The position numbers were made by a program, and so were the translations under genes. The notes under the pieces were generated by a model that saw only the letters and a program-made list of their open reading frames with translations, did no database searches and had not been told where the DNA came from. Of a stretch of DNA of 49,593 bases, positions 922 through 4,775 are shown piece after piece. Origin of the DNA: Bacteroidota bacterium (GTDB taxonomy: Bacteria; Bacteroidota; Bacteroidia; B-17B0; Aurantibacillaceae); contig JANYEQ010000110.1 in assembly GCA_025363015.1 (NCBI GenBank), positions 1 through 49,593 on the forward strand. The letters are read 5' to 3'. Positions within the stretch are counted from its first letter, which is position 1; every line of letters starts with the position of its first letter.

Positions 922-2277
922 ATGATAAAATACCTATTTATTGTTATAAATGCCTTAACTGTTTTTATTTACAGTTTGTTTAGTGGCGATGGTGCAATTA
1001 CTGTTACCAATAACATTCCTAAAAGCATTAATCCTGGGCAAGAAATTACTGTTGAGTTTAAAATTACTAAAGGTAATATGAGCGGCTTTGCAAAGCTGCA
1101 AATAGAATTACCCGAAGGTATTTTAATAAAAGAAAAAGAAAATAAAGGCGCCGATTTTACATTGGTAGAAGGCATTGCAAAATGGGTATGGAGTAGCCTG
1201 CCAGCCGATAACGAATTAATTGTAAAAGCTACATTAGTGGCAGCACCCAATGCTAATGGACTTAAAACAATTGGCGGTAAATATTCGTATGTTGAAAATA
1301 ATGGCAAACAAGTAGTAGAAATGCTACCCACCGAAATTACCATAGGAAATTCAGAAACAGTAACTAATAATTCAAGTGCCAACACCAATACTGTAAACGA
1401 AACAGACGGGCAAACCACCAATACAACAGCAGCTACACCCACCACCGAAGTAACTAAAAGTACACAGCCAAGCACAAATGCCGAACCAGCAACTAATATT
1501 ACAATACAACGTACAATTGTAAAAAATTCGGATAATGAATATGTTATCAACTTAAAAATTAACAAAGGTAGCACCAAAGGTTTTGCACGCTATAGCGATG
1601 ATTTACCCGAAACATTAACCGCTAAAGCTACTAAAACCGAAGAGGCTTCTTTTTCAGTAGCCGACGGTAAAATAAAATTTGTATGGGTTACAGTGCCCGA
1701 TAAGGAAGAATTAGAATTATCGTATACACTCAGCGGGTCAAGCGCATCGCCCGTTACTTTAAATGGTGAATATTCATTTTTAGAACAAAATCAAAGTAAA
1801 AAACATAAAGTACAACCCGAAACAATTACATTTAGTAGTTTTAACAACACGGCCAATATAAGTTCTGTTGGCACGGAGACAAACAACACAGCTCAAACAA
1901 CAAATACGGTAGATAATACGTCTCAAACAAACAATAACTCAAACAACAGCACGCAAACAACTAACCAAACACTTGCAAAAACAGATGGTAATATAAACTA
2001 TATGGTACAAATTGGTGCCTTTACTAATGCCAATGTATCAGCCTCAACACTTGCTCAAAAATTTAATATTACCCAAACTATTAAAAGCGAAATGCAAGGC
2101 GGTTTTTCTAAATTTATGATTGGTAATTATGCGCAATATAATTTAGCACACGATGCCAGAGAAACTACAAAAAACAACAATGGTGTAAAAAGTGCGTTTG
2201 TAGTAGCCTATAATAGTGGTAAACGTATTACCGTGCAAGAAGCATTAATGATTACTAACCAAAAATGGTTTAAGTAA
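922..2277 (+). CDS. Exported SPOR-like domain protein with duplicated N-terminal domain
   Basis: The 451-residue protein starts with a hydrophobic signal segment (about residues 1-20). Two related beta-rich domains follow, at about 26-142 and 190-312. Each shows the order NKGSTKGFARY- or TKGNMSGFAKL-type segment, then an FSVADGKIKFVWVTVP- or FTLVEGIAKWVWSSLP-type segment, then a GEYSFLEQN- or GKYSYVENN-type segment, so they arose by duplication. Asn/Thr/Gln-rich linkers separate the domains (about 143-188 and 315-352). The last ~95 residues form a SPOR-like module (MVQIGAF at the start, SAFVVAYNSGKRITVQEAL near the end). SPOR domains typically bind denuded peptidoglycan, so a periplasmic or outer-membrane location is likely. 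The following gene carries related modules. Function is not known. Confidence 0.8.
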   Translation: MIKYLFIVINALTVFIYSLFSGDGAITVTNNIPKSINPGQEITVEFKITKGNMSGFAKLQIELPEGILIKEKENKGADFTLVEGIAKWVWSSLPADNELIVKATLVAAPNANGLKTIGGKYSYVENNGKQVVEMLPTEITIGNSETVTNNSSANTNTVNETDGQTTNTTAATPTTEVTKSTQPSTNAEPATNITIQRTIVKNSDNEYVINLKINKGSTKGFARYSDDLPETLTAKATKTEEASFSVADGKIKFVWVTVPDKEELELSYTLSGSSASPVTLNGEYSFLEQNQSKKHKVQPETITFSSFNNTANISSVGTETNNTAQTTNTVDNTSQTNNNSNNSTQTTNQTLAKTDGNINYMVQIGAFTNANVSASTLAQKFNITQTIKSEMQGGFSKFMIGNYAQYNLAHDARETTKNNNGVKSAFVVAYNSGKRITVQEALMITNQKWFK

Positions 2278-2411: not shown

Positions 2412-4775
2412 ATGTACAAACTAATACTTTTAGTTTTATTTCTTTTTGCTTTATCTGTTAAGTCTCAAACAGATACTGCTGTATTAAATAAACTCTCCCC
2501 ACAAGAGTTGTTACAATATTATATTAACGAAAAAGAACCCGAAGGCATGTATAAAGGTCCACCATTTATTGGCGATTCTTTATATAACATACTAAACCCT
2601 TTAGTTATTCCCACTCAAACTGTAAATGCGGATGCCGTTTACCGAGATGGTGTCAAAACAAGCGAAGAGCAAATAAAATTAGGAGATACTATTAATAGAA
2701 TTGATCAAAAATTAAAACCAAAAATAGCATTAGGCGTTGGTCGATTAGGTTTTTACGGCAATATGTACCAAAAACATTTTCAATCGCCACTTACAGCCCG
2801 TCCAGCCTTTGATTTAAATGTATCACAACGCTTAACAAGATATTTACAGTTAAACTTTAATATAATGTTCGGTCAATTAGGGGCTAATGAAAATACAACC
2901 ACCCGCCACGAAAATTTTCAATCCGAAATTAGAGCAGGTGGTTTAAATTTACTGTACGATTTTGGTAACTTTATTCCAGATAGGTTTAAGGTTAGGCCAT
3001 TCATAAGTTTGGGTATTACAGGATTTGAGTTTTTAAGTAAAACCGATTTAAAGGATAAAAACGGTAATACTTACTATTATTGGAGTGATGGTAGTATAAA
3101 AGATAAAGCCGAAAATGCTGCCGATGCCCAATTTGCCATAGATTTAAAACGTGATTATACTTATGAAACAGATGTACGCATTCGCAACCAAAAAATTAAT
3201 GGTAAGTATGCCGAACGTGCATTTGCAATACCAGTAGGTGCTGGAGCTATTATGCAAGTAACCGATAGGGTTGATTTTAAACTAAATTTCCAACTATTTT
3301 TTACCAACACTACCTTTATTGATGGCATTACTTCGCAAAATGCAATAGGCAAGCTTACTAAAGATAAATTTACCTATACCTCATTTGCCCTGCAATACGA
3401 TTTAATATCTAAAAATCATCAAAAACAAAAATTACAAAAAGATACGTTAAACGATGCGTTTTGGTTAGCCTTTGATAAAACCGATAGCGATAAAGATGGC
3501 GTACCCGATTTACAAGACGATTGCCAGGGCACCCCTCAAGGCGCTGCTGTAGATGCTAAAGGTTGCCCATTAGATGAAGATAAAGATGGTATACCAAATT
3601 ACCGCGATGATGAATTAAACACCGCATTAGGCGTTCCGGTAAATGATAAAGGTGTAGGCCAAACCGATGATTATTGGCAAGCATGGGTTAGCCAATATCT
3701 TAACGATAGCACAGGGACAGATAAAACTACCGAAATTGTTGGTAATGTTTTTGATTTAGCAAATAAAAAAACAAAACTATCAACTGAAAAAGATGCTTAT
3801 ACCGTTGAACTAATTCGCTATGCAGGTGCCATACCTACAGATGAATTATCATTCTTATTAAGCATTGGCGATATTCAATCAACTACCCTACAAGATGGTA
3901 CAACGGTAGTTTACACATCGGGCGATTACAAAAAAGTAAGTACCGCTATGAAACGTCGCGACGAATTTAGAAGCGAAGGAAATAAAGGCGCTGGTGTGTC
4001 GCGTATAAAAGGTAAAAACATACAAAAAATTAGCGATGAAGAATTAGAAGCCCTATTGAAAAAGGAAAAAGAAGATGAGTTAAAACTAGCCAATAACCCA
4101 GCCTTAAAAGATAGCTTAAATGCTAACAATAATAATACCAATCAAAACAACAATAGTAATACCGAAGAAGTAATTGAAAAATTTGGTAAAGACGAAATTG
4201 TATATCGCGTACAATTAGGAGCATTTAAAAATAAAATTTCAACTAAAATATTTAACACTAGTGCAGGCGTTTTAGAACTTAAAACAGGCGAAGAAATTTT
4301 TAAATATGTTACCAAAGGCTATAAAACAATTGATTTAGCAGCAGCTGTAAGAGCCGATTTAGTTATACAAGGCTATAGCGATGCCTTTGTTACAGCATAC
4401 AAAGGTGGTAAACGTATTTTATTAAATCAAACAAAAGCCACGGTTGATAAAAAATATAAAGAAGATTTAAACGAAGAAAAAATGTTTAGCTCGGTAGATA
4501 AGAAACTAGTACTGTTTAAAATACAATTAGGGCCACTTAAAAAAGCATTTGCCGAAAAAGCAATGGATGAAAAAGTGAAAGACCTTGCAGACAAAGACAA
4601 GCAAACCACAGTAACAGGTAGTATTCGTTACACATCGGGTAATTTTAATAAATTTGATGCTGCCGAAAAATACCGTAAAGAGTTAGAGGCAAAAGGTTTT
4701 GCTGATGGCTTTATAATTGCCACCTTTAAAAACGAAATTATTTCAATACAAGAAGCAATGGAGCTATTGAAATAA
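2412..4775 (+). CDS. Outer-membrane beta-barrel protein with TSP3 repeats and tandem SPOR-like modules
   Basis: The 787-residue protein begins with a signal peptide (LILLVLFLFALSVKSQ). Residues about 90-335 contain alternating aromatic/polar strands typical of an outer-membrane beta-barrel (for example LQLNFNIMFGQLG, FKVRPFISLGITGFEF). Residues about 355-402 hold thrombospondin type 3-like calcium-binding repeats (DSDKDGVPDLQDDC, DEDKDGIPNYRDDE). Three SPOR-like modules follow at about 461-545 (YTVELIRYAG), 595-680 (YRVQLGAF) and 699-787 (FKIQLGPL), with a Lys/Glu- and Asn-rich linker before the second. The layout parallels OmpA-family proteins, but the OmpA peptidoglycan-binding domain is absent and SPOR-like modules occupy its place. 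A role in tethering the outer membrane to peptidoglycan is inferred. The preceding gene ends in the same kind of module. Confidence 0.8.
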   Translation: MYKLILLVLFLFALSVKSQTDTAVLNKLSPQELLQYYINEKEPEGMYKGPPFIGDSLYNILNPLVIPTQTVNADAVYRDGVKTSEEQIKLGDTINRIDQKLKPKIALGVGRLGFYGNMYQKHFQSPLTARPAFDLNVSQRLTRYLQLNFNIMFGQLGANENTTTRHENFQSEIRAGGLNLLYDFGNFIPDRFKVRPFISLGITGFEFLSKTDLKDKNGNTYYYWSDGSIKDKAENAADAQFAIDLKRDYTYETDVRIRNQKINGKYAERAFAIPVGAGAIMQVTDRVDFKLNFQLFFTNTTFIDGITSQNAIGKLTKDKFTYTSFALQYDLISKNHQKQKLQKDTLNDAFWLAFDKTDSDKDGVPDLQDDCQGTPQGAAVDAKGCPLDEDKDGIPNYRDDELNTALGVPVNDKGVGQTDDYWQAWVSQYLNDSTGTDKTTEIVGNVFDLANKKTKLSTEKDAYTVELIRYAGAIPTDELSFLLSIGDIQSTTLQDGTTVVYTSGDYKKVSTAMKRRDEFRSEGNKGAGVSRIKGKNIQKISDEELEALLKKEKEDELKLANNPALKDSLNANNNNTNQNNNSNTEEVIEKFGKDEIVYRVQLGAFKNKISTKIFNTSAGVLELKTGEEIFKYVTKGYKTIDLAAAVRADLVIQGYSDAFVTAYKGGKRILLNQTKATVDKKYKEDLNEEKMFSSVDKKLVLFKIQLGPLKKAFAEKAMDEKVKDLADKDKQTTVTGSIRYTSGNFNKFDAAEKYRKELEAKGFADGFIIATFKNEIISIQEAMELLK

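Follow-up and report, generated by a model that had tools for sequence, protein, structure and literature searches.

The stretch of DNA analysed here, referred to below as the window, comprises 49,593 nucleotides of a Bacteroidota genome and carries, among others, two neighbouring genes that we call B and C, both on the + strand. Gene C (2412..4775) is an open reading frame with an ATG start and 787 codons' worth of protein, in which a signal peptide (residues 1-19, 2412..2468; judged by eye from its VKSQ end, with a helix at 2-14 in the structural model) is followed by a predicted 8-stranded outer-membrane barrel (residues 103-330, 2718..3401), a TSP3-type unit (residues 357-402, 3480..3617) and three modules of SPOR topology. 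Upstream of it, gene B (922..2277; 451 aa) encodes a hydrophobic N-terminal helix (residues 2-20), two Ig-like domains and a closing SPOR module, and the gap between the two genes is 134 bases. The next gene begins 23 bases past gene C, and an open reading frame truncated at the window start (2-490) aligns with the last part of the SiaA phosphatase model at 64.7 bits (cut-off 700). The first-pass annotation of this DNA had proposed for gene C a signal peptide, a barrel, calcium-type repeats and three SPOR-like modules, and this layout is borne out by the open reading frame, by Pfam and by AlphaFold2.

Gene C orthologues are near full-length in most of 36 genomes of the same genus, and the 80 named loci that were kept out of 449 relatives found include 75 that yield a total of 76 full-length proteins. 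The AlphaFold2 model was built on an input of 72 gene C sequences, over which residue conservation was also counted; it has a mean pLDDT of 74.9 and a pTM of 0.36, a low value that is expected for modules joined by flexible linkers, and pLDDT drops below 50 between domains, among them at 336-346, 441-459, 561-587 and 690-694. Prediction of the whole chain, which had been proposed as a check, gives eight strands at 103-330 and three SPOR-topology modules, so that neither of the two outcomes that might have spoken against the annotation, a missing barrel at 90-335 or modules of a fold unlike SPOR, occurred. Chance resemblance as the cause of the layout is ruled out by the orthologues and the predicted fold. 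A Pfam scan of gene C finds SPOR (PF05036) with 26.4 bits (cut-off 21; E 8.8e-6) and its best stretch at 702-769, in the third module; the same scan returned no enzyme domain and, at E <= 1, no match to OMP_b-brl or to DUF6089, of which the latter matches some relatives only. Compared with PDB sequences, the whole gene C profile finds an OmpA-family chain (5wtl) via the TSP3 stretch at E 7e-4 and the CwlC SPOR domain (1x60) at E 0.023. A single-sequence scan of genome contigs confirmed no relative. Residues 20-96 (window 2469-2699) contain a motif, GP...GD...PTxTV, that is common to 12 same-genus alignment rows and absent from six rows of other families; residues 46-96, between signal peptide and barrel, are mostly predicted to be disordered.

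The predicted barrel matches the transmembrane domain of OmpA (1qjp with a VIA Z of 16.4 and an rmsd of 2.6 for 135 residues; 9a2m, which is itself a model, with a Z of 18.4). The 8-stranded OmpA transmembrane fold is present in the model, and no OmpA peptidoglycan-binding domain was found: the Pfam scan gave no match to PF00691 at E <= 1, on which membership of the OmpA family was rejected. An even number of strands places both ends of a barrel on the same side of the membrane and, taken together with the signal peptide and the OmpA-like fold, this suggests that the gene C modules should be periplasmic. The putative outward loops, 212-268 and 299-318, contain 17 and 5 near-invariant positions respectively, and their mean conservation (0.72 and 0.66) is about that of the strands (0.71), a pattern that points to a conserved partner or ligand on the outer side; OmpA loops, by contrast, are described as variable (PMC5300881). 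Loop motifs within residues 212-318 (window 3045-3365) include KTD, Y.YW.DG.I, RDY.YE.D.R and DG.

At the sequence level it is the PorG model (NCBIfam T9SS_PorG, NF052316) that recognises the barrel, with 34.1 bits for gene C and 71.2 bits for its L136 orthologue, against an equivalog cut-off of 130 bits. Of the OmpA-type tether layout that had been proposed, the fold is thus upheld, and the sequence kinship of the barrel lies with another family. The same genome has a separate PorG (169 bits), with which the gene C profile aligns at 96.1% (E 3e-9) along the greater part of the barrel, including the PorG stretch TDYLDDVS. Gene C has no apparent equivalent of the tail cysteine of PorG, its only cysteines kept in 72/72 sequences being 371 and 385, both within the TSP3 unit, and with this absence and a score of 34.1 against 130 bits PorG membership was ruled out. 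Given the profile similarity and the confinement of the cysteines to the TSP3 unit, the barrel is, as far as sequence can tell, a distant PorG relative with a different tail. The kinship lends itself to another reading of gene C, as an accessory of the type IX secretion (T9SS) or gliding machinery whose PorG-like barrel is anchored to the wall by SPOR modules instead of being cysteine-bonded to the GldK/PorK track. Both family scores and the profile alignment would fit such a role, as would the architecture of PorG itself, an 8-stranded barrel with a cysteine-bearing periplasmic tail that is disulfide-bonded to GldK according to PMC12635249; yet the scores stay far under 130 bits, a PorG proper is encoded elsewhere in the genome and both invariant cysteines are accounted for by the TSP3 unit, and we consider an accessory role improbable. 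Co-occurrence with PorG was discarded as evidence because it is uninformative, PorG matching at E 1e-30 in 229/247 genomes of the class.

Between barrel and modules, the TSP3-type unit was recognised from its pattern: D358, D360, D362, D366 and D369 are invariant in 72/72 sequences, as are the two cysteines. The calcium-type DxDxDGxxD pattern seen by the first-pass annotation consequently holds, though TSP_3 (PF02412) reaches only 17.6 bits on gene C, under its gathering score of 25.

Module 1 (residues 462-539, 3795..4028), of divergent SPOR topology, is joined by a variable, low-complexity linker (residues 541-594, 4032..4193; pLDDT < 50 at 561-587) to module 2 (residues 597-669, 4200..4418); module 3 (residues 700-786, 4509..4769) consists of a SPOR part at 700-777 and a C-terminal helix. 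In the AlphaFold2 models all three, together with the gene B module, have a strand-helix-strand-strand-helix-strand topology, the first helix of module 2 being merely a 3-residue turn. The suggested HMM check against PF05036 succeeds for two modules of three: among orthologue stretches, SPOR is found at E 0.01 in 22/25 for module 2 and 24/25 for module 3, and in 0/23 for module 1. As separate pieces of the gene C protein, modules 2 and 3 score 19.7 and 18.9 bits, just under the cut-off of 21, and weak SPOR matches are themselves unspecific, occurring at E <= 1 in 11/14 control genomes and over the cut-off in 6. Profile comparison pairs module 2 with module 3 at 99.2%, module 1 with module 3 at 97.7% (E 2e-12) and module 1 with module 2 at 96.1% (E 4e-9); to judge from such profiles, module 1 is remotely homologous to modules 2 and 3 and to the gene B module. 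Against PDB sequences, CwlC (E 0.0012) and FtsN (E 0.0088) are hits of the module 3 profile, with unrelated designed proteins scoring between them; module 2 finds CwlC (1x60) only, at E 0.037, and module 1 has no meaningful match. Fold searches with the whole models had no SPOR chain among the matches listed, the lists being filled by the barrel for gene C and the Ig domains for gene B, and the assignment of a SPOR fold to the modules is based on predicted topology and sequence. Module number seems to vary, since a relative of 1196 aa (L045:4168-7755; SPOR 65.6 bits) has several module-like matches and apparently more modules; another relative, at L040, ends after module 2.

Residues that would contact glycan are unevenly distributed among the modules. 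In the RlpA complex, as described in PMC6895207, Q270 contacts two sugars, with further contributions to the site from the A273-N276 backbone and the F274 ring. The equivalent glutamine, located here via the Q-x-G-A-F motif rather than by superposition, occurs in 72/72 sequences in module 2 (Q601, alongside G603 and A604, likewise 72/72), in 71/72 in module 3 (Q705), in 51/51 in the gene B module and in 3/72 in module 1, where the position is Glu in 59/72 (E466 in the window). Module 3 is more variable beyond its glutamine: the first position after QxG is A in 34, P in 10 and V in 10 of 72, and the aromatic position has L in 43/72 and F in only 15/72. From the conservation of these contacts, glutamine and aromatic, module 2 and the gene B module are expected to bind glycan best and module 3 to bind it, with no binding expected of module 1.

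The gene B protein has a predicted structure of mean pLDDT 83.2, in which Ig-like domain 1 (residues 27-141, 1000..1344) is supported by the model and a fold search and Ig-like domain 2 (residues 194-302, 1501..1827) by Pfam as well; the fold matches are to generic Ig-like folds such as those of pilins, integrins and adhesins. Its SPOR module (residues 358-436, 1993..2229) has Q363 and A366 in 51/51 sequences. Pfam SPOR gives 15.3 bits for the gene B of the window, under the cut-off of 21, and E 0.01 or better in 14/51 members, and the gene B profile finds the CwlC SPOR domain 1x60 among PDB sequences at E 0.006. The gene B and gene C modules are related (hhalign 99%). That the upstream gene closes in the same kind of module, as had been noticed from the letters, is therefore confirmed by topology and homology, with a Pfam score of its own below the cut-off.

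Genes B and C are a conserved unit across families. In 66 of the 69 named loci with enough flank (the exceptions being L120, L121 and L139), gene B immediately precedes gene C, with a median gap of 35 bases, and in 32/63 loci a further barrel+TSP3 gene, gene A, lies just upstream of gene B. A whole-protein search of the window's genome gave no second barrel or TSP3 match at E <= 1, so that gene A seems to be absent from it. Among 247 genomes of the class that are at least 90% complete, surveyed with profile matches at E 1e-20, the gene C profile, whose counts take in barrel+TSP3 proteins without SPOR, was found in 129 and the gene B profile in 113: 109 genomes have both, 20 have C only, 4 have B only and 114 have neither. 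Strong B/C pairs with listed coordinates are adjacent in 44/50 cases; of the other six, four are on different contigs, one pair is 1.2 kb apart and one 50 kb. Within the genus, 33/36 genomes have a whole or partial gene C match, the three without one being G003, G004 (73% complete) and G024. At two loci, L047 and L048, barrel+TSP3 genes stand in tandem arrays that also include a short gene resembling gene B, and three of the barrel+TSP3 genes scanned there have EF-hand matches in place of SPOR. A small, charged and apparently secreted protein of 105-125 aa follows gene C in four relatives (L038:10694-11041, L041:4410-4727, L049:10289-10666 and L054:8515-8877); two of the four share MAINEKGIP and a third has MAITEQGIP.

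Elsewhere the genome is rich in conventional wall-binding domains. It has 24 stretches matching the OmpA domain (PF00691), 21 of them over the cut-off, and two Amidase_3 matches over the cut-off, by which bare (denuded) glycan could in principle be made. The idea that SPOR modules replace the OmpA domain accordingly applies to the gene C protein, which lacks PF00691, and not to the cell, where a gene C tether would be an extra kind and may be redundant. SPOR-like matches at E <= 1 number nine in this genome, of which genes B and C account for three. P0002, a protein of 2213 aa encoded on a different contig (L058:998-7636, G000:C43), has a PD40-bearing front that resembles, at a best E of 4e-30, OmpA-domain proteins from this genome and, at its end, three stretches similar to the SPOR modules of genes C and B (Pfam SPOR 19.2 against 21); it is present in 20/20 fetched stretches, which were preselected for a hit there and so are no survey. 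Near it lies P0003 (L058:8334-9212, G000:C43), a short gene B paralogue with one Ig-like domain and SPOR (25.5 bits), 33% identical to gene B over 157 residues. P0002 and P0003 were considered as a second conserved pair and rejected, a separate B-like ORF (at least 150 aa, E 1e-5) being found in 0/20 stretches, from which the P0002/P0003 neighbourhood looks local to this genome. A further protein (L062:4207-5286, G000:C115) joins a HU-CCDC81 double domain to SPOR, that is, a front of DNA-binding type to an end of wall-binding type.

The computed evidence, namely the domains of gene C, its predicted fold and homology, the conservation of glycan-contact residues and the pairing of genes B and C across families, makes it somewhat probable that gene C encodes a tether from outer membrane to peptidoglycan that grips amidase-processed glycan. 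From these we infer a topology in which the barrel would sit in the outer membrane with both ends periplasmic, and the TSP3 unit, binding calcium, would act as a stiffened spacer. Modules 2 and 3 would grip glycan strands stripped of their peptides by amidases, and module 1, having lost the glycan glutamine, would more likely serve as a spacer or for docking, possibly of the gene B protein. The latter may be an Ig-SPOR protein, either periplasmic or anchored in the inner membrane, and may bind glycan of the same type next to the gene C protein; the conserved pairing of the genes does not by itself show contact. With modules 2 and 3 and gene B on denuded glycan, a B-C complex would attach the outer membrane preferentially to wall that is undergoing processing, and most of all at the division site.

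Two other readings, both of which we regard as unlikely, concern what the modules bind and where. The SPOR modules might mainly bind proteins, in particular each other or the gene B module, with glycan binding secondary or lost; this would suit the loss of the glutamine from module 1 and the tight linkage of two genes whose modules are related, and it leaves unexplained a glutamine, unneeded for pure protein binding, that is kept in 72/72, 71/72 and 51/51 sequences of modules 2, 3 and gene B. Alternatively, gene C might encode a small porin or a structural tether of a general kind, distributed over the entire cell surface and not favouring the division site; its layout is shared with OmpA-type proteins, which are abundant, and denuded glycan may occur at a low level everywhere. 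The conserved glycan-contact residues argue instead for a denuded ligand, and denuded glycan is described as enriched in the septal ring (PMC6895207). A more ambitious version of the amidase-processed-glycan tether, which we put forward as a tentative possibility, is that these tethers form a class widespread in Bacteroidota, with a conditional hold on the wall, in which a complex of B, C and, in many lineages, A engages only such glycan and thereby couples invagination of the outer membrane to splitting of the septal wall, whether in addition to Tol-Pal or in its place.

To our knowledge, the way in which dividing Bacteroidota draw in their outer membrane and keep it attached to the wall is poorly described. 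If the tether is real, a barrel-anchored SPOR protein with a linked partner gene would allow the outer membrane to be attached to processed wall alone, and the conserved glutamines make this directly testable. The B-C pair is conserved in Bacteroidota and apparently uncharacterised: among the matches listed in open-licence PubMed Central literature, at the level of titles and abstract openings, there is no description of a barrel-TSP3-SPOR protein, with or without a linked Ig-SPOR partner.

OmpA domains bind the stem peptide of peptidoglycan, and SPOR modules should bind bare glycan. OmpA-type tethers (OmpA of E. coli, OmpA1/OmpA2 of P. gingivalis) share with gene C an 8-stranded barrel of OmpA fold and a periplasmic, wall-binding C-terminus, predicted in the case of gene C; they end in an OmpA domain, whereas gene C ends in three SPOR modules. 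The L057 relative is an OmpA-ended version of the layout, with OmpA at 46.6 bits over its cut-off and TSP_3 and OMP_b-brl below theirs. PorG is a relation with an 8-stranded barrel and a periplasmic C-terminal tail, from which gene C differs in falling far under the family cut-off, in lacking the tail cysteine and in having a tail of TSP3 and SPOR. P0002 has a layout resembling that of PorE/PG1058, as outlined in PMC5053529, with OmpA exchanged for SPOR; like gene C it has its wall-binding domain exchanged, on another framework, and unlike gene C it has no barrel, lies away from genes B and C and has a SPOR score that is itself below the cut-off. Since this unrelated framework also ends in three SPOR-like stretches, replacement of the OmpA domain by SPOR may be a recurrent pattern. 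RlpA, FtsN, DamX and DedD have SPOR domains with the glycan-contacting glutamine, as in gene C, and RlpA is also anchored in the outer membrane (PMC6895207); these proteins have a lipid or single-helix anchor, in contrast to the integral barrel and three modules of gene C, which moreover matched no enzyme domain. Outer-membrane-anchored SPOR proteins, in the lipid-bound form of RlpA, and OmpA tethers are thus already known, and what appears new here, judged from the open-licence papers listed, is an integral barrel that ends in SPOR modules and has a linked Ig-SPOR partner.
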